From contig NZ_AP022671.1 in the NCBI RefSeq assembly GCF_011405515.1, positions 4,030,001 through 4,094,000 of the forward strand: a stretch of 64,000 nt of DNA, read 5' to 3'. Shown piece by piece: positions 34,646-62,256 of the stretch. Position 1 is the stretch's first letter. Each line of letters begins with the position of its first letter. The stretch comes from Nitrospira sp. KM1. Its GTDB lineage: Bacteria > Nitrospirota > Nitrospiria > Nitrospirales > Nitrospiraceae. The translations under genes were made by a program, and so were the position numbers. Below the pieces are notes generated by a model that saw nothing but the letters and a program-made list of their open reading frames with translations, did no database searches and was not told where the DNA came from.

Positions 34646-35911
34646 ATGACATCCAAGCGTACACCGTCAGTGTCACAGCTCGAACAGGCGCTTCAAGAAA
34701 AAAGCCGAGAGGTCGATGTCCTCCATCGTATTACCGATTCCATCAGCAACACGCTTGACCTTGAATCAATCCTTAAGCACATCGTTGAAATCGTCGTTGA
34801 GGTGACGCGGGCCGATGCGTGTCTGCTGTATCTGCTCTCCGACGGGGGCGATGAACTGATTCTTCGCGCCTCGAAAAATCCACATCCCCGACTCATTGGT
34901 CGCATTACCATCGGCATGGGTGAGGGGATTACCGGTTGGGTGGCTCGGGAGCGAACGCGCGTCGTCATTCCCAGTAATGCAAGCGATGATCCCCGGTTCA
35001 AATTCTTCCATAATCTTCCGGAGGATCGGCATCAGGCCTTTGTTTCCGTTCCGATCATGGCGAAGAAGGAAGTGACGGGGGTCATCAACGTTCAGCACAA
35101 GCGGCCGAAACGGTATCGGATGGATGAACTCGCGCTGCTTTCCACGATCGCCAATCAAGTTGGGGGTGCTATCGAAAATGCTCGTCTGTACGATCAGATG
35201 AGACGCAAGGCTCTCCAGGTTGAAACCTTGTCGCAAGTTTCGGAGACTGTTGCATCCAGCCGTCTTCTCGAGGACGTCATGCAATTGCTGGTCACGATGA
35301 CCGCGCAGATGATGAATTCAAAAATCTGCTCCATCATGCTGCTCGACCCGGCGACGGGAGATCTCAGAATCGAGGCTACGCAGAGCCTCAGCGAGCAGTA
35401 TCGGCGGAAGCCCAGCTTGAAGATGGGCCAAAGCGTGAGCGGCCGGGCGGTTCAAGAGCGCCGACCGATTATCGTCCTCGATGTCACGAAAGAGCGGGAC
35501 TATATGTATCCGGACATCGCCAGACGGGAAGGGTTGTCCTCGCTGCTTTCCGTGCCGATGATGGTCCGTGAGAAGGCGGTCGGGGTGATTAATAGCTATA
35601 CCTCCGTCCCGCATGTGTTCACGAACGAAGAGGTCAAGCTGCTTCAAGCTGTGGCGAACCAAGCGGCGATCGCTATTGAGCATGCGACGCTCTTGGAAAA
35701 ATCGTTCGAAATGCAGGAGGCGCTTGCCGTTCGCAAATTGCTGGAACGCGCCAAAGGCTATCTGATGCGGTCGAAAAAACTTACCGAAGAAGAAGCGTTC
35801 AAGCTCATTCAGCGTCAGAGCATGGATCTGCGTAAATCGATGCGTGAAATTGCCGAGGCAGTCCTCTTGGCGGGAGAACTCGAAGAACGCGCGGATAAAC
35901 GGCGAGGTTAG
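34646..35911 (+). CDS. GAF-GAF-ANTAR antiterminator
   Basis: A 421-residue sensor/RNA-binding protein, 12 bases after aroB. A short coiled coil (residues 9-30) leads to two GAF domains (about 30-190 and 195-355; GITGWVARERTRVV and SVSGRAVQERRPIIV are equivalent segments). The last 60 residues are an ANTAR domain: VRKLLERAKGYLMRSKKL, TEEEAFKLIQRQSMDLRK and REIAEAVLLAG carry the conserved Arg, Ala-Lys, Glu-Ala-Phe and Ala positions. ANTAR proteins bind paired hexaloop hairpins in nascent RNA and stop terminator formation. Four such target modules lie in this window (38.0, 54.0, 62.0 and 62.2 kb). The GAF ligand cannot be told from sequence. Confidence 0.93.
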   Translation: MTSKRTPSVSQLEQALQEKSREVDVLHRITDSISNTLDLESILKHIVEIVVEVTRADACLLYLLSDGGDELILRASKNPHPRLIGRITIGMGEGITGWVARERTRVVIPSNASDDPRFKFFHNLPEDRHQAFVSVPIMAKKEVTGVINVQHKRPKRYRMDELALLSTIANQVGGAIENARLYDQMRRKALQVETLSQVSETVASSRLLEDVMQLLVTMTAQMMNSKICSIMLLDPATGDLRIEATQSLSEQYRRKPSLKMGQSVSGRAVQERRPIIVLDVTKERDYMYPDIARREGLSSLLSVPMMVREKAVGVINSYTSVPHVFTNEEVKLLQAVANQAAIAIEHATLLEKSFEMQEALAVRKLLERAKGYLMRSKKLTEEEAFKLIQRQSMDLRKSMREIAEAVLLAGELEERADKRRG

Positions 35912-37982: not shown

Positions 37983-38012
37983 TTGACAAGCGGTAGGCAA
38001 AGGTCCTATAAG
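37983..38012 (+). promoter_or_regulatory. Sigma-70 promoter of porin-urt leader
   Basis: TTGACA (37983-37988, full consensus), an 18-base spacer and TATAAG (38007-38012, 5 of 6). The predicted start of transcription near 38019 places the whole hexaloop/terminator module at 38023-38134 inside the transcript. Confidence 0.8.
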
Positions 38013-38022
38013 CGTGGCGCAT

Positions 38023-38098
38023 CGTGCCGTACAGTGAGAGGGACAATGAAGTCCTGATCAAAGGCACGGGTTACTGCGAGAGGACAATGGCGTCCTTT
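38023..38098 (+). promoter_or_regulatory. ANTAR-type dual hexaloop motif, porin-urt leader
   Basis: Hairpin P1: GGGAC (38040-38044), six-base loop AATGAA, GTCCT (38051-38055). It is enclosed by an outer stem CGTGCC/GGCACG (38023-38028 with 38063-38068). Hairpin P2: a 7-bp stem 38079-38085 with 38092-38098 closing loop AATGGC (38086-38091). Both loops have A at position 1 and G at position 4, the bases ANTAR proteins read. The loop and 3' arm of P2 are also the 5' arm of the terminator that follows, so P2 and terminator cannot form together. Confidence 0.85.
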
Positions 38099-38134
38099 TG
38101 GTCCACTTGGCGGGCCGGAAGGGCGTTTTTTTTT
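38089..38134 (+). terminator. Leader terminator before porin-urt
   Basis: A 16-bp stem with several G-U pairs (38089-38104 with 38112-38127), a 7-base loop and nine T (38126-38134). It lies 67 bases before the first gene, so it is an attenuator and not an end-of-operon terminator. Confidence 0.88.
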
Positions 38135-38201
38135 GACTCCAGCCGCTCCTTCCGGATGACATGAGTGATGAACCTGTTGTCGATCATGAGGAGGACTAGG
38201 A

Positions 38202-39620
38202 ATGAGAAGCAGTGTGAGAATTCCAGGCTGGGCCATCACCGTGATCTTGCTCGGTACGGTGTTTGCGATGGAAGCTCCGGTTGTTGCTCAAGTGCAGGAA
38301 AAAGCCGCGGGTGAAGAGGCGGGCGGGGGGAGAGAGACGAGGAAATTGGAGGATGTGGAGCCGGCCGTCAATATCTGTGCAGGCTGTATCGCGCCACTCT
38401 TTACCAAAGGGAGTAAGGGAACGCTCACGCCGTATGGACGCATCGAACTCGATGGCATCTACAGTACAAGAAATACCAACCCGTTAGATCCACAGCAGTT
38501 CAATGGTTATGGCACGGCGGCCGGGCGGCAGGGCAATAGCAGTTCCACCCTCAATCCCCGCTACAGCGTGTTTGGCCTTCGAGCCGATAGAACGGACGGC
38601 GTCAGTACACTCGCTGGCGTCGTCGAGATGGACTTCTACGGGCAGTCTGACAGCGGCAACAACCTGTTGCCCCGTCTGCGTCTCGCGTACCTGAAATACT
38701 CGCCGAACAACAACAAGACCATTTTCACGGTGGGGCAGGACTGGAATCCCATTATGGGACTGTTGAGCGATAACATCGACTTTTCGATCATGGGCTACAC
38801 CGGAAATCTCTGGCAACGTATTCCGCAGATCACGGTGCGGCAAAAATTTTCGGACAATTTTGAAGGACTCGTCACGGTGATGCGGTTCGAGCGTGGACTC
38901 TCCAACTGCTGCGGCAATACCCAAGTGCGGACGACAACCGACACCGGCGGCAATGGAGGCGGGCCTGGAAGCACATCGGCCTTTAACGATCCAGTTCAGA
39001 TGCCATATTTCGGAACGAGGTTCGCGTTCAATGGCACCGGCAAGATGGCGGGGACGATGCTCGCGGTGAATGGAGCCTATCGATGGTATCGGTCGGCACC
39101 GACCCCTACCGGCGTTCTGGCCACTCCCGGCAAGGACATCAGCTCCTATCTCGTGGGTCTTGAAGCTGTTCATCAATTGGCCAAACAGCTAAGATTGACG
39201 TGGGAATTGGCCTATGGACAAGCGCTGGGGAATGAATGGTTCAGGTGGAACCAGGATTTGAACTGGTCGACCGGCAACCCTGTCCGCGCGTTAACCTCTT
39301 GGTTCCAATTGAGCTATGCCTACTCTCGCGATTATACGTTTCTGTTCGGGTACGGCATTGATAATCCCCTCGACAGCGATCTCAAGGGCAGCATCAATGC
39401 CTACGGGACAACGCCTGGGTCAACTGGATATAACTCGAGCATCCAGTATCTGTCCAACCAACGGACGTATCTCACGGCGATCCACCCGATATGGTCGGAT
39501 TTCGTGATGGGATTTGAGTGGCAGCATTTCTGGACGAACTGGGCGCAGCCGACGACCTATTCGGCAAAGGCGTCCAATCAGGCGGACATGTTTACGTTGT
39601 CAGCCTGGTACAACTTCTAA
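38202..39620 (+). CDS. Outer-membrane porin of the urea uptake operon
   Basis: A 472-residue protein with an N-terminal signal (hydrophobic residues about 9-28, ending VVAQ). The rest is rich in alternating strands and aromatic girdle residues, ending LSAWYNF with the C-terminal Phe typical of beta-barrels. A Cys pair (NICAGC, about residue 65) is unusual in a porin. Its place ahead of urtA suggests passage of urea or short amides. The exact porin family is not certain. AGGAGG precedes the ATG. Confidence 0.8.
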   Translation: MRSSVRIPGWAITVILLGTVFAMEAPVVAQVQEKAAGEEAGGGRETRKLEDVEPAVNICAGCIAPLFTKGSKGTLTPYGRIELDGIYSTRNTNPLDPQQFNGYGTAAGRQGNSSSTLNPRYSVFGLRADRTDGVSTLAGVVEMDFYGQSDSGNNLLPRLRLAYLKYSPNNNKTIFTVGQDWNPIMGLLSDNIDFSIMGYTGNLWQRIPQITVRQKFSDNFEGLVTVMRFERGLSNCCGNTQVRTTTDTGGNGGGPGSTSAFNDPVQMPYFGTRFAFNGTGKMAGTMLAVNGAYRWYRSAPTPTGVLATPGKDISSYLVGLEAVHQLAKQLRLTWELAYGQALGNEWFRWNQDLNWSTGNPVRALTSWFQLSYAYSRDYTFLFGYGIDNPLDSDLKGSINAYGTTPGSTGYNSSIQYLSNQRTYLTAIHPIWSDFVMGFEWQHFWTNWAQPTTYSAKASNQADMFTLSAWYNF

Positions 39621-39695: not shown

Positions 39696-41054
39696 ATGAG
39701 CGCTGAACTCAACGACGGGCAACATCACCTGACGGCAGGGCCTGAGGAAGGACAGTCCCGGCGGGACTTTCTGGTACAAGGTTCAAAGACCGCAGCCAGT
39801 ATAGGCATCGCCGCGCTGCTGGGGAACCTAGGCCATTGGGCTCTGTCCTATGCCGCGGACAAGGAGCCGGTAAAAATTGGTGTCCTCCACTCACTCAGCG
39901 GCACCATGGCGATCAGCGAAGTCTCTTTGCGCGACACAGTGCTGATGGCGGTGGAAGAGATCAATGCCAAAGGCGGCGTGATGGGTAGGCAGATCAAACC
40001 GGTGGTGGTCGATCCCGCCTCCAACTGGGATCTGTTCGCGGAAAAAGCCAAACAGTTGCTCTTGCAAGACAAGGTAGCCGTGGTTTTCGGTTGCTGGACT
40101 TCGGTCAGCCGCAAGTCCGTGCTGCCGGTGTTTGAGAAGAACAACGGCTTGCTGTTCTATCCGGTGCAGTACGAAGGCGAAGAATGTTCGCGCAATGTTT
40201 TCTATACCGGCGCGGCCGTCAATCAGCAGGCCGTGCCTGCCGTAGAATATCTGATGAGCAAGGAGGGCGGAGGATACAAGAAGTTCTACTTGCTCGGTAC
40301 GGATTACGTGTATCCGCGTACGACGAATAAAATTCTTCGCGCCATGTTGCTCGCCAAGAAAGTGCCCGAGGCGAATATCATGGAGGAATACACGCCGTTT
40401 CATCACCAGGACTATCAGACGATTGTGGGCAAGATTAAGAAATTTGCCGCTGGAGGCGGGGCGGCGGTGATCAGCACGATCAACGGCGACAGCAATGTGC
40501 CGTTTTACAAAGAATTTGCCAATCAGGGATTGCGGGCGGAAGATGCTCCGATTATGGCCTTCAGCGTGGCGGAGGATGAGTTGCGCGGCATGGATACCAC
40601 GACACTTGTCGGTCATCTGGCCGCCTGGAACTATTATCAAAGCGTTGACACACCTCAGAACAAGAAGTTCGTCGCGGACTTCAAGGCGTATTGCAAGAAG
40701 AACAATTTGCCGGACGGCGAAAAACGCGTGACGGACGATCCGATCGAGGCCGCGTATTTCGGCGTCCACGTATGGAAGCAGGCTGTCGAAAAGGCTGGGG
40801 CGCTCGAAGTCGATGCGGTTCGTAAGGCGGTGTATGGCCAGAAGTTTCTCGCACCGGGTGGAGAAATCATGATGGATACCGGCAACCATCATACGCATAA
40901 GCCGGTGCTCATCGGAGAAATTCTCAAGGACGGCCAGTTCAAGGTGGTGTCGCGTTCCAAAGGACTGGTGAAGCCTGAGCCATGGAGTGAGTACACCAAC
41001 CCGGAGAAAGGCTGCGATTGGACCAGCCACCAGGGGACGTACCAGAAGCCGTAG
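39696..41054 (+). CDS. urtA: Urea ABC transporter substrate-binding protein
   Basis: A 452-residue periplasmic receptor for urea. The N-terminus has a Tat-type signal (SRRDFLVQGSKTAASIGIAALLG). The mature part follows the UrtA pattern: IGVLHSLSGTMAISEVSL, GGVMGRQIKPVVVDPASNW and FGCWTSVSRKSVLPVFE. It is the second gene of the attenuated operon, 75 bases after the porin. Confidence 0.95.
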   Translation: MSAELNDGQHHLTAGPEEGQSRRDFLVQGSKTAASIGIAALLGNLGHWALSYAADKEPVKIGVLHSLSGTMAISEVSLRDTVLMAVEEINAKGGVMGRQIKPVVVDPASNWDLFAEKAKQLLLQDKVAVVFGCWTSVSRKSVLPVFEKNNGLLFYPVQYEGEECSRNVFYTGAAVNQQAVPAVEYLMSKEGGGYKKFYLLGTDYVYPRTTNKILRAMLLAKKVPEANIMEEYTPFHHQDYQTIVGKIKKFAAGGGAAVISTINGDSNVPFYKEFANQGLRAEDAPIMAFSVAEDELRGMDTTTLVGHLAAWNYYQSVDTPQNKKFVADFKAYCKKNNLPDGEKRVTDDPIEAAYFGVHVWKQAVEKAGALEVDAVRKAVYGQKFLAPGGEIMMDTGNHHTHKPVLIGEILKDGQFKVVSRSKGLVKPEPWSEYTNPEKGCDWTSHQGTYQKP

Positions 41055-41165
41055 TCGCTGCGAGTGACGCGTGCGGGACTTCGTCAGTTGAAAGATCGTA
41101 GAGAGAGACGAGCGGGTGACGAGGCAAATGGCCGACGTCACCCGTTGTCGTGTTCGGGAGGATTC

Positions 41166-42713
41166 GTGAAAAGCATGAGACAGGCAGCCATGGTATGGGC
41201 TGTGATTCTGTGCCTTGCGCAGGCAGGGACTTCAGCGCTGGCGGCGGACTCTTCGGCTCAGCCGGTGATCATGCCGCTCGAACAGGCACTTACCCAGATA
41301 ACCAGTGAAGACGACACGGTGCGCGACACGGCGCTTGCCGCGGTCATCCAACAGGGAGATGCGACACTGCTTCCGCGTCTCGATGAGATCCGCGCTGGTG
41401 CGGAGCGCCCCATTCGTCTGGCGATCAAGCCGGTGATGGATCTCATTCGAAACCGGAGCAATCTCGACGATCCTGCCTCCCATGTTCGTCGTTCCGCTGC
41501 CACGGATTTGGGCACGTCCGGCCGGGTCGTCGCGATTCCATGGCTGGAAGCCGCGGCTGCGAAGGAAGACAAAAAATGGGTGCGCTATACGATGCAGGAA
41601 GCCGCAGCGCTGCTCAAGTTATCGTTGAATGACCAGGCCTCCAAGCTCGAGGCGATCGATACGTTGGGAGCCTTGTCGAGTCAGAACGGCGTGCCGGCGC
41701 TTCAAGAAATGATGACGGCCGGTCGAGCCTCCAACTCCACAGACGCACAAAAGGAATTGGCCAAACGGTCGTCCGCCGCAATCGAGCGGATCGAAACGTG
41801 GGGGGCCTGGTCGAACGCCATTGAAACCATCTTCCGAGGGATCAGCCTCAGTTCTATCCTCCTGATTATGTCGGTGGGGCTGGCCATCGTGTTCGGTCTG
41901 ATGGGCGTCATCAATATGGCGCACGGAGAGTTGATGATGGTCGGCGCCTATGCGACCTTCCTCACCCAGGAACTCTTCAAGTCATTGCTGCCGCCGGCGA
42001 TGTTCGATTATTATTTCGCTTTTGCCCTGCCCGTGGCGTTTGTGTTGGCGGCCTTGAGCGGATTGATTCTGGAGGCCACGGTCATACGGTTTCTGTACGG
42101 GCGTCCGCTCGAAACCATGCTGGCGACGTGGGGAGTGAGCCTGGTGCTCATGCAGGCGGCGCGCGTATATTTCGGCGATCTCACGGCCGTGGTCGCACCC
42201 GGCTGGTTGAGCGGAGGGCAGCAGGTGATGGTTGGAGTCTTTTTCCCCAACAACCGTTTGTTCATCATCGCATTATCCATCATCTGTGTGCTGGGCATCT
42301 ATGGACTGCTGTTCCGTTCCAACCTCGGACTTCGCGTTCGAGCGGTGACGCAGAATCGGAATATGAGCGCGTGTCTCGGTATTCCCACGAGAAAAGTCGA
42401 TGCCTATACCTTTGCGTTCGGTTCGGGGCTGGCCGGCATCGCCGGCTGGGCCTTGACCTTGATTGGGAACGTCGAGCCGGGTCTTGGTCAAAACTATATC
42501 GTGGATTCGTTCATGGTGGTGGTGACGGGCGGTGTTGGCAAGCTGGCCGGCACGATCGTCGCGGCCCTGGGAATCGGCGGGTTGAACAAGGTGCTCGAGC
42601 CGAGTTTGGGAGCGGTTTACGGAAAGGTCTGCATCCTCGTCCTTGTAATTTTATTTTTACAATGGCGGCCGTCCGGTTTGTTTGCCATCAAGGGGCGCCA
42701 TGCCGATTCGTAA
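41166..42713 (+). CDS. urtB: Urea ABC transporter permease UrtB
   Basis: A 515-residue permease. Residues 1-30 form a signal-like segment, about 45-230 a soluble region with HEAT-like repeats typical of UrtB, and the rest a LivH-type membrane domain (GLMGVINMAHGELMMVGAY). The GTG at 41166 has GGGAGG upstream; the frame is open to 41064 and an ATG at 41175 is the alternative. Confidence 0.94.
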   Translation: MKSMRQAAMVWAVILCLAQAGTSALAADSSAQPVIMPLEQALTQITSEDDTVRDTALAAVIQQGDATLLPRLDEIRAGAERPIRLAIKPVMDLIRNRSNLDDPASHVRRSAATDLGTSGRVVAIPWLEAAAAKEDKKWVRYTMQEAAALLKLSLNDQASKLEAIDTLGALSSQNGVPALQEMMTAGRASNSTDAQKELAKRSSAAIERIETWGAWSNAIETIFRGISLSSILLIMSVGLAIVFGLMGVINMAHGELMMVGAYATFLTQELFKSLLPPAMFDYYFAFALPVAFVLAALSGLILEATVIRFLYGRPLETMLATWGVSLVLMQAARVYFGDLTAVVAPGWLSGGQQVMVGVFFPNNRLFIIALSIICVLGIYGLLFRSNLGLRVRAVTQNRNMSACLGIPTRKVDAYTFAFGSGLAGIAGWALTLIGNVEPGLGQNYIVDSFMVVVTGGVGKLAGTIVAALGIGGLNKVLEPSLGAVYGKVCILVLVILFLQWRPSGLFAIKGRHADS

Positions 42714-42727
42714 TTGCCGGATGAACC

Positions 42728-43864
42728 ATGTCCGAGTCTCCTGATCTCCAGCCCCGCCAGGCCCGTGAAGTCGGCCTCTCCTTCTGGGCTGCGGGGTTTG
42801 TGTTGCTGATCCTCATGCCGTTGCTCAACGTCCTGCCGCCGGAGGAGTCCTGGCTGCATCTGTCCGATTTTTCGCTCAACCGGTTCGGCAAATTTCTGGC
42901 TTTTGCCATTCTCGCATTGGGTCTGGACCTCATTTGGGGCTACACCGGCATCCTGAGTCTGGGGCAGGGAGTGTTTTTCGGGCTGGGGGCCTACTGCATG
43001 GGCATGCACCTCATGCTGGCGATCGGCAAGGAGAGCGTGTACGGAAGCGACCTTCCTGATTTCATGGTGTGGAATCAGGTCAAGGAACTCCCCATATTCT
43101 GGAAACCGTTCTACAGCTTTCCTGTCGCCGTCGTCGGGGCCATCCTTGTCCCGACCCTCTTCGCGCTCGTATTTGGATTCCTCGCCTTCCGCAGCCGAAT
43201 CAAGGGTGTCTATTTTGCCATCATCACCCAGGCTCTCGCCCTCGTCGCATGGCTCGTGTTCAACCGTAATGAGACGAATCTGGGCGGCACCAACGGCCTG
43301 ACCGATTTCAAACAGCTTCTGGGTTTCAGGCTGTCGGAGCCGGGCACGCAGCGGGCGCTCTATGTGCTGACGGTGCTGTGTCTTGGTGGAGCCTACCTGC
43401 TCTGCCGGTGGATCATTCGGTCCCGGGCAGGACGAGTGCTGGTTGCCGTGCGCGACAGCGAGGCGCGTGTCGTGTTTTCCGGCTACACACCGGCGAACTA
43501 TAAATTATTCGTGTTCATCGTGGCTGCCGCGCTCGCAGGTCTTGCGGGGATGCTTTACGTGCCGCAAGTCGGCATCATTACTCCGGCGCAGATCGGCGTA
43601 CTGCCGTCATTGGAAATGGTCATCTGGGTGGCCGTTGGAGGAAGAGGCACGTTGGCCGGAGCCGTATTGGGAGCCGTCAGCGTGAATCTCGGACGCAGCG
43701 TCCTGACCAATTATTTTCCCGAGTTGTGGCCCTTCATGCTCGGAGGACTCTTTGTGGTAGTCGTTCTGCTGTTTCCCGACGGCCTCATCGGGATCGGACG
43801 TAGGTTGAGGGAACATACGGTTTCCAGAAAAGTTCCCGTCGTGATCGAGGCTGAACGCTCATGA
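42728..43864 (+). CDS. urtC: Urea ABC transporter permease UrtC
   Basis: A 378-residue LivM-type inner-membrane permease, with LGLDLIWGYTGILSLGQGVFFGLGAY and the cytoplasmic coupling loop AVRDSEARVVFSGY. It follows urtB after 14 bases and overlaps urtD by 4. Confidence 0.95.
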   Translation: MSESPDLQPRQAREVGLSFWAAGFVLLILMPLLNVLPPEESWLHLSDFSLNRFGKFLAFAILALGLDLIWGYTGILSLGQGVFFGLGAYCMGMHLMLAIGKESVYGSDLPDFMVWNQVKELPIFWKPFYSFPVAVVGAILVPTLFALVFGFLAFRSRIKGVYFAIITQALALVAWLVFNRNETNLGGTNGLTDFKQLLGFRLSEPGTQRALYVLTVLCLGGAYLLCRWIIRSRAGRVLVAVRDSEARVVFSGYTPANYKLFVFIVAAALAGLAGMLYVPQVGIITPAQIGVLPSLEMVIWVAVGGRGTLAGAVLGAVSVNLGRSVLTNYFPELWPFMLGGLFVVVVLLFPDGLIGIGRRLREHTVSRKVPVVIEAERS

Positions 43865-44625
43865 GCGAACGCGGGTCGATCATCTACCTGGAAGGCGTCA
43901 TTGTCGATTACGACGGGTTCAAGGCGCTGAACAATCTTAATTTCATCGTCAATTACAACGAGCTGCGCGTCGTCATCGGTCCGAATGGCGCCGGCAAAAC
44001 GACGTTGCTCGATGTGATCTGCGGGAAGACCAAGCCCGCTGCGGGGCGCGTGATCTTCGGCAAGGATGTCGAGTTGATCGGCCGGCGCGAGGACGAGATC
44101 GTCAAGCTGGGTATCGGGAGAAAATTCCAGGCTCCGTCGATTTATGGCAATTTGACCGTATGGGAAAATCTCGATCTGTCGTTAAAACGTCCGAGCAAGG
44201 GCGTTTTCCCGACGTTGATCGGAAAATCGACGCCGGAAGAACGTGAACGGATCGCCGCCGCGTTGGACACCATCGGACTACAGCTGCATGCCCACACGAG
44301 AGCGGGTTCGCTGTCTCACGGACAGAAACAATGGCTCGAAATCGGTATGGTCATCCTGCAGGATCCGCAGTTGCTGCTGGTTGATGAGCCGGTCGCCGGC
44401 ATGACCGACAAAGAAACAGAACAGACGGGTGTCCTCCTGCAGTCGTTGGCCAAACAGCATGCCATCGTCGTGATCGAACACGATATGGAATTCGTGCGCC
44501 AGATCGCCAGAACCGTCACCGTGTTGCACGAAGGCACCGTCATCTGCGAAGGCACGGTGGAGAAAGTCCAAGCTGACGATCGGGTTCGCGAAATTTATCT
44601 GGGACGGCAGAAAGTGGCCCACTAA
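43861..44625 (+). CDS. urtD: Urea ABC transporter ATPase UrtD
   Basis: A 254-residue ATPase. Walker A is GPNGAGKTT; the signature reads LSHGQKQWLEIG, the form usual in UrtD/LivG; Walker B is LLLVDEPVAG; the switch histidine is in VIEHDMEF. The stop overlaps the urtE start by one base (TAATG). Confidence 0.95.
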   Translation: MSERGSIIYLEGVIVDYDGFKALNNLNFIVNYNELRVVIGPNGAGKTTLLDVICGKTKPAAGRVIFGKDVELIGRREDEIVKLGIGRKFQAPSIYGNLTVWENLDLSLKRPSKGVFPTLIGKSTPEERERIAAALDTIGLQLHAHTRAGSLSHGQKQWLEIGMVILQDPQLLLVDEPVAGMTDKETEQTGVLLQSLAKQHAIVVIEHDMEFVRQIARTVTVLHEGTVICEGTVEKVQADDRVREIYLGRQKVAH

Positions 44626-45365
44626 TGCCCTCTGAATCGAACGGTCGGAATGTCATATTGGACTTGAGACGGGTCAATGCCTTCTACGGAGAAAGCCACA
44701 TTCTGCGGAACGTCTCGTTCACGGTCGAAGCCGGTGAAGTGGCGTGCCTCATGGGCCGCAATGGGGTAGGGAAGACCACGACGCTCAAAGTCATCACCGG
44801 CCTGCTGGCTGTCCGCTCCGGAGAATTATTCTTCAATGGAACGGACGTGACGAAGCTGACGCCGGACCGTAGGGCGCGTCTTGGCCTCGCCTACGTTCCT
44901 CAGGGGCGGGAAATCATTCCACATCTCACTGTACGGGAAAATCTGAAGTTGGGGTTTTGGGCCAGATCGGATTCTCCAGCCGGCGATGTGGAGAAGGCGG
45001 CGTTTGAGGAAGTCTATCGGCTATTTCCAAAACTGACGCAGATTCTCGACCGTCCGGGTGGGGTGTTGAGCGGCGGTGAACAGCAGCAACTGGCGATTGG
45101 ACGGGCGATCCTGTCTAACCCGAAGATGCTGCTGCTGGATGAGCCGACTGAAGGCATTCAGCCTTCCATCGTCGATCAGATCGAGGACGTGATCATAGGG
45201 TTCAAACATTCACGGCGGTTCGCGATTCTACTGGTCGAACAGGGCCTCCATTTCGCTGCCCGGCTGGCTGAAAAATATGTCGTCATGGCGAAGGGGGCCG
45301 TCGTGGCGGCCGGGAAAAGTCATGAGCTGAATGCTGAGATGGTCAGGCAGCACCTAACGGTTTAG
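44625..45365 (+). CDS. urtE: Urea ABC transporter ATPase UrtE
   Basis: A 246-residue LivF-type ATPase. Walker A GRNGVGKTT, signature LSGGEQQQLAIGRA, Walker B LLLDEPTEGIQP. It is the last urt gene; the order porin-urtABCDE is collinear and closely spaced. Confidence 0.95.
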   Translation: MPSESNGRNVILDLRRVNAFYGESHILRNVSFTVEAGEVACLMGRNGVGKTTTLKVITGLLAVRSGELFFNGTDVTKLTPDRRARLGLAYVPQGREIIPHLTVRENLKLGFWARSDSPAGDVEKAAFEEVYRLFPKLTQILDRPGGVLSGGEQQQLAIGRAILSNPKMLLLDEPTEGIQPSIVDQIEDVIIGFKHSRRFAILLVEQGLHFAARLAEKYVVMAKGAVVAAGKSHELNAEMVRQHLTV

Positions 45366-47261: not shown

Positions 47262-48305
47262 CTAGGAAGATTTGCCGAAGCGCCGTAGGTTGTCCTCAGG
47301 TGTGGTGGCATCGGCGGGTGCGACGGGAATCAGGCTTGAAAATCCGTCCTTTGCCAGCAGCATCAGCCAGGTGACAAACACGAAGGCCGATGTCAGCACC
47401 GGCATACCGGCCGGTTCCAGGAAAATGCCCAACGAAGCCCAGACGCGTGCCGTCACCAGAGCTCCGATGAATGCATAGAGGAATGCAGGCAGGTTGAATA
47501 CGAGAAACATGCCTCCCAAGGCCATCGCGGTTAGCGCCGCATTGTAGCCGAACAGGCCATCCCTGATGGCCTCATCGTGGGCTCCGTAAAGGACGGCGAC
47601 GCCGACAGCGAGTGTTGAGCCCATCAAGGCCATCAGCGCCCCGATGCGAGTGTTGACGGCGATGCCGGTCAGAATGACGATGCCGGTTACCCAGTTGTCC
47701 TGAAAAAATATTTCCGCGATCCCCATCGTGATGCCGTGGAACCAGGTGATCCAGGTATAGTCGGGCCTTGGACCGCTGAAGTCGGCCGGTGAAGTCGGTT
47801 TGAGCGCGTTGGAGACATCGATGGTCGTGAATTGGAGGAGCGCGCCGAGGAAAAACCACGTTGCCAGGACGAAGGGCATCGTCAGACCTGGAACCCTGTG
47901 CGGACCTAACAAGGCGCCGAACGCCGGTAGGATGATCGTCGTGAAGACGGCGCAGAGCATGATGTAGAAAATGAGATAGGCGTTTGGGACGTTGCCGGTC
48001 GTAAAATTCGGACTCGTGTAGGCGACGAAGGCGATTCCGATCAACGCACCGTTGAATCCGAAGAGGCCGTCTTTGATCATGCCCTTATCGGCTTTGAACA
48101 GGATCGCGGTCAGCGTGCTGACAATCGTGGCGAACAGACAGATTGTTCCGTAGATCCAGGAGTTGTAGAAGATGCCGGCAAGGATGATGGCGCCGGAGCG
48201 AGGATTATTCTGGAACACAACCTGGCCGATCCCGCGAAGGATCCAATCGACGAACCCGAAGACGGGATGATCCCGCCACCGGTCTTGAAAGGGGACGGTC
48301 GGCAC
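47262..48305 (-). CDS. UT-family urea channel
   Basis: A 347-residue integral membrane protein built of two homologous halves, each with a FQ(N/D)N loop: GQVVFQNNPRSGAIILAG near residue 28 and AEIFFQDNWVTGIVILTG near residue 196, plus KDGLFGFNGALIGIAF and RDGLFGYNAALTAMAL. This is the inverted/duplicated layout of UT-type urea transporters. GTG start at 48305, divergent from ureA. It gives a passive, energy-free second route for urea beside UrtABCDE. Confidence 0.93.
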   Translation of the reverse strand: MPTVPFQDRWRDHPVFGFVDWILRGIGQVVFQNNPRSGAIILAGIFYNSWIYGTICLFATIVSTLTAILFKADKGMIKDGLFGFNGALIGIAFVAYTSPNFTTGNVPNAYLIFYIMLCAVFTTIILPAFGALLGPHRVPGLTMPFVLATWFFLGALLQFTTIDVSNALKPTSPADFSGPRPDYTWITWFHGITMGIAEIFFQDNWVTGIVILTGIAVNTRIGALMALMGSTLAVGVAVLYGAHDEAIRDGLFGYNAALTAMALGGMFLVFNLPAFLYAFIGALVTARVWASLGIFLEPAGMPVLTSAFVFVTWLMLLAKDGFSSLIPVAPADATTPEDNLRRFGKSS

Positions 48306-49332: not shown

Positions 49333-51056
49333 AGATCCCACGCAAGCAATATTCGGATCTGTTCGGGCCGACCGTCGGCGACCGCGTGCGTTTGGCGGAT
49401 ACGGATCTGCTGATCGAGATCGAAAAGGATTTCACATCCTACGGGGATGAGGCGGTGTTTGGAGGTGGGAAGGTATTGCGCGACGGCATGGGCCAATCCT
49501 CTGGAGCCACCAATGCCGGCGGTGCGCTCGACACGGTGATTACGAATGCGCTCATCCTCGACTACTGGGGGATTGTGAAGGCCGATATCGGTATTAAGAA
49601 CGGACGCATCGTCGGCATCGGGAAGGCCGGCAATCCCGACACGATGCCGAACGTGACGGCTGGAATGGAGTGCGGAGCCGGGACTGAGGCTATTTCCGCG
49701 GAAGGGTGCATCGTCACGGCGGGAGCGCTCGAAACGCATGTGCACTTCATTTGTCCGCAACAGTGCTGGGAAGCGTTGTCTGCCGGCATCACGACCATGA
49801 TCGGCGGGGGCACTGGCCCGGCCACCGGGACGAACGCGGTGACCTCGACGCCTGGTCCATGGAACATCGCCAGGATGCTGGAAGCAGCGGAAGGCATTCC
49901 TATGAACCTGGGTTTTACCGGCAAGGGAAACTGCTCGATGCCCGATGCGTTGAACGAACAGATCGAGGCCGGAGCCCTTGGATTGAAAGTGCACGAGGAC
50001 TGGGGCTCGACGCCTGCCGCCATCGACTGCGCGCTGTCGGTCGCCGATCGTTATGACGTGCAGGTGGCGCTGCATACCGACACCCTGAACGAGGCCGGTT
50101 TTGTCGAAGATACGATCAAGGCTTTCAAGGGTCGGACGATCCATACCTATCACACGGAAGGGGCGGGTGGAGGGCATGCGCCCGACATTCTCAAGGTCTG
50201 CGGAGAGCCCAACTGTCTTCCGTCTTCGACGAACCCGACGATGCCGTTCACGGTCAACACGCTGGATGAACATCTGGACATGATGATCGTCTGTCACCAC
50301 TTGAACAAAAAGGTTCCCGAAGACGTTGCGTTCGCGGAATCGCGGATCAGACGCGAGACGATCGCCGCGGAAGACGTGCTGCACGACATGGGGGCGATCA
50401 GCATGATGTCCTCGGACACACAGGCCATGGGACGGATCGGAGAATTGATCATTCGCACCTGGCAGACTGCGCACAAGATGAAACTGCAGCGCGGCCACTT
50501 GACCGAACGCGGTATTCAGCCCGGGAAGGCGCAACACGACAATTTCCGGGCAAAGCGCTATGTCGCCAAATACACGATCAATCCGGCACTCGCCCATGGC
50601 GTGGCCCATGAAGTTGGATCGGTGGAAGTGGGAAAAGTCGCCGATGTGGTGGTCTGGAAGCCGGCGTTTTTCGGGATCAAGCCCGAGATGGTTTTGAAAA
50701 GCGGCTTCATCGCGCAGGCTCAGATGGGCGATCCGAATGCGTCGATCCCGACGCCGGAACCTATCATTAGCCGGCCGATGTTCGGAGCCTATGGACGCGC
50801 ATTGGCGAGTACGAGCATCACGTTCGTTTCGCAAGTGTCGCTCGATCTGGAGGTGCCGGAGAAATTGGGCCTGCAGCGGCGCATGGTGGCGGTCAAGAAC
50901 TGCCGGACGGTCAAGAAGCGCGACCTCAAGCTCAACGATGCTCTTCCTCACATCGAGGTCGATCCGGAAACGTACGTGGTTACGGCGGACGGCGAGCGGA
51001 TCACCTGTGAGCCGGCTGTTGTTCTGCCGATGGCGCAGCGGTACTTCCTCTTTTGA
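49329..51056 (+). CDS. ureC: Urease alpha (catalytic) subunit
   Basis: A 575-residue nickel hydrolase that splits urea into ammonia and carbamate. Nickel ligands are in ETHVHF (His137, His139), the carbamylated lysine is Lys220 in GLKVHEDWG, the flap histidine is in [10 protein letters not shown], and the last ligand Asp is in [13 protein letters not shown] start overlapping ureB. All catalytic residues are present, so the enzyme should be active. Confidence 0.98.
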
Positions 51057-53957: not shown

Positions 53958-54011
53958 GGAGACAACGGAGTCTCCCAATCGACACTTCTCCGATAATGGA
54001 CAACGACGTCC
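53958..54011 (+). promoter_or_regulatory. ANTAR-type dual hexaloop motif, nadE-amtB leader
   Basis: Hairpin P1: perfect 6-bp stem GGAGAC/GTCTCC (53958-53963 with 53970-53975) with loop AACGGA. Hairpin P2: GGAC (53998-54001), loop AACGAC (54002-54007), GTCC (54008-54011). Linker 22 bases. Both loops start AA and have G at position 4. The 5' arm of the following terminator begins inside the P2 loop and uses its 3' arm, so the folds are mutually exclusive. Confidence 0.83.
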
Positions 54012-54047
54012 TCGATCCCGCTCATAGGGATTGAGGACGTTTTTTTT
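54006..54047 (+). terminator. Leader terminator before nadE-amtB
   Basis: A 14-bp stem with one G-T pair (54006-54019 with 54027-54040), loop GCTCATA and eight T ending at 54047. It might also end the ureD transcript, but its overlap with hexaloop P2 and the TTGACA upstream favour an attenuator role. Confidence 0.9.
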
Positions 54048-54181
54048 GGGATGATGCTGAAACAGCAACCTGACTTCGTTCTCAGTCGGTTTAGCCGCTC
54101 AACGTGCGGAAGGGAGCATGCCTCGCGGCCACTCTTCCTTGCGGCCTTGCCGGTTCGTCTGTTTGAGCATCATCCAAATCA

Positions 54182-61990: not shown

Positions 61991-62054
61991 TCGATCGTGA
62001 ACAAAGACGTTCCGGTCGATTTCAAATACTAGGCAAACGGACAAAGGCGTCCGT
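61991..62054 (+). promoter_or_regulatory. ANTAR-type dual hexaloop motif, nrt unit 1
   Basis: Hairpin P1: GAAC (61999-62002), loop AAAGAC, GTTC (62009-62012), within an outer stem TCGATC/GGTCGA (61991-61996 with 62014-62019). Hairpin P2: ACGGAC/GTCCGT (62037-62042 with 62049-62054), loop AAAGGC (62043-62048). Both loops have A1 and G4. The P2 loop plus 3' arm form the 5' arm of terminator T1. Confidence 0.85.
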
Positions 62055-62090
62055 CATTCTGAGAATGAGTGGCGGGCGCCTTTTGATTTT
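62043..62090 (+). terminator. Leader terminator T1 before nrtA
   Basis: A 17-bp stem with three G-T pairs (62043-62059 with 62067-62083), 7-base loop TGAGAAT, followed by ttttgatttt. It overlaps P2 of unit 1. Confidence 0.88.
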
Positions 62091-62121: not shown

Positions 62122-62141
62122 GCAGGACGTACAACGATTCG

Positions 62142-62180
62142 ATGGGTCGGCGGAGACCCGTCTTCTGGACAAAGGCGTCC
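62142..62180 (+). promoter_or_regulatory. ANTAR-type motif, nrt unit 2 (first loop degenerate)
   Basis: First hairpin: ATGGGTC/GACCCGT (62142-62148 with 62155-62161) closes a six-base loop GGCGGA, which has G4 but lacks A1. Second hairpin: GGAC (62167-62170), loop AAAGGC, GTCC (62177-62180), identical in loop and core stem to P2 of unit 1. Linker 5 bases. The second hairpin overlaps terminator T2. Confidence 0.7.
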
Positions 62181-62209
62181 TTTTCCCGAGAGGGAAGAGG
62201 ACGCCTTTT
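62171..62209 (+). terminator. Leader terminator T2 before nrtA
   Basis: A 17-bp stem (62171-62187 with 62192-62208, one G-T pair) with loop GAGA and TTTT followed by gtgttt. It lies 47 bases before the nrtA start and overlaps the second hairpin of unit 2. Confidence 0.88.
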
Positions 62210-62256
62210 GTGTTTCAGGCCGTTCACGACGACCGCGGAGCGGAAAGGGGTGAGCC

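Follow-up and report, generated by a model that had tools for sequence, protein, structure and literature searches.

NasR of Klebsiella, an ANTAR protein, carries a nitrate-sensing NIT domain and answers to a specific inducer. The ANTAR dual-hexaloop RNA was defined in Ramesh 2012 (PMC3369931), and the part of that paper available here places urea transporters, P-II, and ammonium and nitrate transporters among the predicted ANTAR RNA targets; a high-affinity urea pump controlled by antitermination, put forward as a new target class in the preliminary description of the locus studied here, is therefore not one. As of the same paper (PMC3369931), GAF-ANTAR proteins had no characterised example. 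For EutV, the residues that touch RNA are named in the accessible text of Walshe 2022 (PMC8934654), and the accessible portions of the two papers (PMC3369931; PMC8934654) indicate how much linker length between the hairpins is tolerated, 14 nt being harmful and 20 additional nt abolishing the response.

In the literature searched, whose scope left most subscription papers outside, the control of urea, ammonium and cyanate uptake in Nitrospira is little described, and none of the papers listed connects Nitrospira with ANTAR proteins or antitermination; a set of papers that do contain the words appears, judging by titles and the openings of abstracts, to use them only incidentally or with another meaning. 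Nitrospira rank among the major nitrite oxidisers, and complete oxidation of ammonia occurs in some of them. The stretch of DNA analysed here (64,000 nt, referred to below as the window) contains a porin-urtABCDE operon preceded by a leader whose features are collected in Table 1.

Table 1. Features of the urt leader and related elements, in window positions
Feature	Position	Strand	Basis and remarks
GAF-GAF-ANTAR protein, 421 aa (proposed antiterminator)	34646-35911	+	PF03861 and two GAF stretches
Promoter-like pair	TTGACA 37983-37988; TATAAG 38007-38012	+	Sequence; 18-bp spacer
Outer stem enclosing P1	38022-38028 with 38063-38069	+	Fold; 7 bp
P1 hexaloop hairpin	38040-38055	+	GGGAC-AATGAA-GTCCT; loop AATGAA
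P2 hexaloop hairpin	38081-38096	+	AGGAC-AATGGC-GTCCT; loop AATGGC; overlaps terminator 5' arm
Intrinsic terminator	38089-38134	+	16 pairs, 38089-38104 with 38112-38127; 7-nt loop; T9 at 38126-38134
Post-terminator element	38144-38155	+	Constrained fold; complementary to terminator 3' arm 38115-38125
First operon gene	38202-39620	+	Porin-like according to the preliminary description
urtA, urtB, urtC, urtD, urtE	39696-45365 (starts 39696, 41064, 42728, 43861; urtE 44625-45365)	+	NCBIfam models
Second ANTAR leader (predicted)	53959-54048	+	Before nadE-amtB-glnB-glnD-glnA
Third ANTAR leader (predicted)	61998-62090	+	Before nrtA-like gene, nrtB, nrtC/D, cynS

The urt leader and its folds

The promoter pair (promoter-like by its sequence), the two hexaloop hairpins and the 16-bp terminator with nine T that were described earlier are all present, and the leader lies wholly upstream of the porin ATG. 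The TATA positions show almost no variation in a 24-row alignment of leaders (A2), and both hexaloops begin with A and carry G as their fourth base. Bases 38089-38096 are common to P2, which can be extended to 9 bp when a longer sequence is folded, and to the terminator, so that only one of the two can form. Downstream, the products of urtA to urtE each score above their own NCBIfam cut-off; the product of the first gene has no match in Pfam or NCBIfam. Between urt and ure, a gene for a UT-family urea channel (PF03253) occupies 47262-48305 on the minus strand.

The leader is more stable than expected by chance, its 152 nt folding with z = -4.49 and none of 200 shuffles being equally stable. 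A descriptor of two such hairpins and a T-rich tail, drawn up only once the leaders were known, matches the window three times (38043, 53962 and 62001) and matches none of 200 dinucleotide-shuffled windows. An Rfam scan of the window gave neither an ANTAR nor a riboswitch match; its sole match, 5_ureB_sRNA (69.4 bits; 49481-49768, minus strand), is antisense to ureC and probably reflects conserved urease coding sequence.

The fold bears out the earlier observation that P1 is nested in an outer stem, the length of this stem being 7 bp and not the 6 bp given before. The linker between P1 and P2 measures 25 nt in sequence and 11 nt with the outer stem formed, compared with 5-12 nt in eut leaders. 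A 25-nt linker exceeds the tolerance of EutV and thus counts against an ANTAR attenuator, unless the stem flanking P1 shrinks it to 11 nt, as it may. In 12 of the 25 urt leaders the folding energy of the P1 flanks reaches p<=0.05 against shuffles, as it does in 3 of 24 nadE leaders and 1 of 9 amt leaders; the outer stem was accordingly rejected as a family-wide trait, the urt counts being in favour and the nadE and amt counts not. Having at least four enclosing pairs is uninformative as a sole criterion, since shuffles attain as many.

Once sequence to 38170 is taken into account, the antiterminated structure folds best, and it contains a third hairpin in which the post-terminator element pairs with the 3' arm of the terminator. 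This complementarity exceeds that of shuffles in 12 of 14 urt leaders (several of which are near-copies of one another), 0 of 9 amt, 1 of 26 nadE and 0 of 1 nrt leaders, the only positive nadE leader being the window's own (a stretch in 54040-54100, p 0.005). The test used 47 of 62 named-locus matches, omitting 15 that have no T-run or clear class, and its set included one leader (L064) that was not scorable. Of the cells of this hairpin, 88.4% are paired in register, yet 85 of 500 shuffles attain the observed score, so that the pairing is conserved without proof by covariation. As the element is transcribed after the T-run it cannot decide termination; it could keep the terminator from re-forming.

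A GAF-GAF-ANTAR protein encoded upstream

A predicted partner of the right family is encoded about 2 kb upstream of the urt leader by the only gene for an ANTAR-domain protein in the genome. Its PF03861 match has an E value of 5.1e-19 and a score of 68.2 bits against a cut-off of 27.3, and a Pfam scan of the product detected GAF domains and ANTAR only, with no receiver domain. The ANTAR part can be aligned to solved chains of Rv1626, EutV, NasR and AmiR (chains 1s8n and 6wsh being, we take it, Rv1626 and EutV, respectively). As judged by eye from this alignment, in which chain numbering equals that of the EutV paper +2, the window protein keeps 6 of the 11 RNA-contact residues of EutV (R142, K143, K149, E160, M172 and R175) and has mild changes at two (K147R and Y164F); the remaining three are altered (R168Q, N173D and R177S), which counts against an ANTAR attenuator. 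NifA and PtsP-like models match the first GAF domain. GAF domains of the NifA and PtsP families bind 2-oxoglutarate or glutamine, and the match may serve as a lead pointing to one of these ligands.

Four leaders in one genome

A covariance model (R1) was built from 27 leaders, and an alignment (A1) comprises 24 leaders of relatives and the three of the window, near-duplicates (L019, L027, L031-L035) and one masked locus (L006) being omitted. In the 4.5-Mb genome R1 has four strong matches (E 6.0e-13 to 3.2e-8; next best 0.117), at genome positions 4068040 (urt), 4083959 (nadE), 4091998 (nrt) and 4096039 (amt); all of these except 4096039 were in the training set. For a second model, R2, the training set consisted of 24 nadE-type leaders of other genera from named loci, with no urt leader among them; it places the same four on top: nadE 2.3e-8, urt 5.5e-4, amt 0.0069 and nrt-cynS 0.0225, followed by 0.90. 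The amt leader lies 2 kb past the end of the window, ahead of two amt genes; one ANTAR gene and four leaders are found inside 28 kb. Through like leaders, the GAF-GAF-ANTAR protein probably also controls nadE-amtB-glnB-glnD-glnA, nrt-cynS and amt. NrtABD also goes by the name CynABD in the available text of a 2025 Nitrospirales paper (PMC12342949), and the nrt-cynS operon may therefore serve cyanate.

The nrt/cyn leader is followed by a second hexaloop-terminator unit (62138-62215), with a P2-like GGAC-AAAGGC-GTCC at 62167 and a terminator; the loop of the P1-like hairpin in this interval starts with G, not A. A search for NtrC gave nothing above the curated cut-off and many relatives below it, and a search for ammonia oxidation genes (AMO) was without a match, as was its control anywhere; neither result speaks for an absence of these genes.

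Conservation and co-occurrence in relatives

A DNA search detected the leader in 7 of 7 genomes of the genus and 61 of 175 of the family. Thirty-two leader loci were read, including the window's own (L002) and the masked one. A P1 whose ANNGNN loop is closed by AC/GT, 36-49 nt before P2, is present in all 30 readable loci of relatives, 27 of which had matched the DNA query solely beyond P1. The leader lies upstream of a relative of the first urt-operon gene in 31 of 32 loci (the exception being L028), and the end of a GAF-ANTAR gene falls within the upstream flank in 22 of 31 loci, the window's own excluded. Across genera, A1 and G4 are retained in both hairpins. For P1 and P2 together 95.2% of cells are paired and four pairs have changed on both sides, which none of 500 shuffles attains; P1 contributes most of the covariation (15 cells altered on both sides, a count that none of 500 shuffles attains), P2 is nearly invariant, and the terminator is conserved in 24 aligned leaders. 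The alignment proposed earlier as a check thus showed P1, P2 and terminator to be conserved among relatives, and P1 to carry compensatory changes. The contrary case, a broken P2 beside an intact terminator, does not occur among the 32 loci, in all of which P2 is intact; because these loci were recruited by a match to P2 and the terminator, this is a weak point in favour.

Beyond these, 80 named loci centred on ANTAR genes, labelled Nitrospira or other Nitrospirota types except for one Nitrosospira and one Nitrospinota, yield 62 leader matches in 57 loci. The matches stand before urt (15), nadE (25) and porin2-amt (9), and 13 have no recognised gene on their strand within 3 kb. Distant loci (e.g. 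L153, L159, L160, L162, L164, L168 and L170) show the order ANTAR gene, ~100-320 nt, leader, nadE, glnD; from this order, control may have begun at nadE and been extended to urt afterwards, ANTAR-leader-nadE-glnD being perhaps the ancestral arrangement.

Ten matches (L096, L099, L102, L105, L107, L108, L110, L114 and two in L161) retain all or most of P1-P2 without a clear terminator or T-run. In L096 and L161 a gene for a Cache-PAS histidine kinase lies between leader and urtA, followed in L096 by a gene for a REC-LuxR regulator. That one clade keeps P1-P2 without a clear terminator speaks against an ANTAR attenuator, and the mechanism in that clade must differ or be decaying.

ANTAR was found in 104 and R1 leader matches in 110 of the 175 family genomes: 101 have both, 3 have ANTAR only, 9 the leader only and 62 neither, these being raw genome counts that are not phylogenetically independent. 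Both unpaired classes count against the ANTAR reading, namely the nine genomes with a leader but no ANTAR match (eight at E <= 1.1e-7; G070, described below, is among the nine) and the three with ANTAR but no leader match. The contrast between presence and absence comes from a single genus, g15 (both 14, ANTAR only 0, leader only 3, neither 62), as no genome outside it lacks both. Among 104 genomes with UrtA above cut-off the counts are 61, 2, 4 and 37, in the same order; the 37 are g15 genomes that possess urtA and lack both leader and ANTAR, and the leader therefore follows the regulator, not urt. A matching P2-terminator was absent upstream of urtA in 7 of 7 urt loci examined from these genomes (G052, G056, G068, G092, G107, G115 and G116). 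An eighth (G070; L181, ~14878, minus strand), from a genome ~99% complete and without an ANTAR match, has a leader-like P2 hexaloop hairpin before urtA, which is possibly a relic. One of the seven, G056 (L179), carries the hexaloop pattern in antisense orientation inside urtA, and several kb upstream it has a weak hairpin resembling a terminator.

Discussion

The analysis establishes the anatomy of the RNA and how far it is conserved, a lone ANTAR gene in the genome, and that gene and leader tend to be present or absent together; the transcription start, the binding, the direction of control and the signal are what we infer. RNA polymerase would start near 38019, and by default the terminator would fold and transcription stop before porin-urtABCDE. 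An active GAF-GAF-ANTAR dimer would bind the A1/G4 hexaloops, P1 first and then P2; with P2 holding the bases of the terminator's 5' arm, RNA polymerase would read on into the operon. Attenuation with antitermination, as proposed in the preliminary description, thus stays the predicted mechanism, in keeping with the mutually exclusive P2 and terminator and with the conservation of P1, P2 and terminator.

It is very probable that the urt leader is an ANTAR-controlled transcription attenuator served by the GAF-GAF-ANTAR protein, with the same protein probably acting on three more operons. One alternative treats the hexaloops as incidental: the structure would simply be an intrinsic terminator for the region upstream, or else an attenuator that works constitutively and needs no trans factor. 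The terminator is indeed strong and highly conserved and, since the adjoining upstream gene lies on the opposite strand, could guard against stray transcription; however, a promoter-like pair stands directly ahead of it, both hairpins retain A1 and G4 across genera, the leader tracks the ANTAR gene rather than urt, and leaders recur ahead of other nitrogen operons, all of which makes this reading very unlikely. Even less credence is due to a protein-free riboswitch or small-molecule leader (for e.g. urea, ammonium or glutamine): the extended stem around P1 and the mutually exclusive folds would suit one, but no Rfam riboswitch matches in the window, the conserved parts are the hexaloops and P2/terminator with no junction pocket, and an ANTAR protein co-occurs with the leader.

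Translational control could in principle supplement ANTAR attenuation at urt, the post-terminator element masking the ribosome-binding site except where it is itself bound by the released arm of the terminator. For the SD of the window's urt leader, the calculated probability of being unpaired is 0.06 when the terminator forms and 0.31 when P2 does, and several relatives have an SD region similar to the terminator arm. Against this, the sign is mixed over the 23 scorable of 25 leaders, and element-SD pairing reaches p<0.06 in just 4 of 10 leaders (p=0.515 in the window). Capture of the ribosome-binding site by the element was thus weak on testing and was not adopted, and such an added layer is unlikely. 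Returning to ANTAR attenuation, a wider proposal is offered tentatively, as possible though rather doubtful: one GAF-GAF-ANTAR protein may be the master switch of nitrogen scavenging in Nitrospira, and at urt a third, urt-specific element would capture the freed 3' arm of the terminator, latching the read-through transcript in its antiterminated state.

Urea itself is doubtful as the signal, as four nitrogen operons seem to be served by a single ANTAR protein, and a reading of the leader as urea-specific was rejected. A protein that apparently faces genes for urea, ammonium, cyanate or nitrate, P-II and glutamine synthetase makes a general nitrogen signal likelier, and the GAF domains most likely read nitrogen status. 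With one regulator and four sequence-defined targets, the control of uptake becomes directly testable, and the natural absences of leader and ANTAR in one genus offer a ready comparison.

By its layout the urt leader is of a known RNA type, the ANTAR dual-hexaloop antiterminator, with some traits of its own: the urt-specific element complementary to the 3' arm of the terminator, the P1 stem that may shorten the linker and the terminator-less clade. Like EutV-eutP of Enterococcus faecalis, as portrayed in the available text of PMC3369931 and PMC8934654, it combines two A1/G4 hexaloop hairpins, a P2 lying over an intrinsic terminator and an ANTAR protein. EutV is a phospho-relay ANTAR response regulator, whereas the Nitrospira protein lacks a receiver domain and carries two GAF domains instead; the Nitrospira leader likewise departs from eutP in its 25-nt linker and extra P1 stem, and in preceding nitrogen rather than eut operons. 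NasR-nasF of Klebsiella, named in the available part of PMC3369931, shares ANTAR antitermination ahead of a nitrogen-assimilation operon. Unlike NasR, the Nitrospira protein has a GAF-GAF sensor and several targets. The predicted ANTAR regulon of Desulfotomaculum acetoxidans, as given in the accessible text of PMC3369931, resembles the present one in having several leaders ahead of nitrogen genes; it is a prediction only and comes from another bacterial group, whereas in Nitrospira one ANTAR gene and four leaders lie together within 28 kb.
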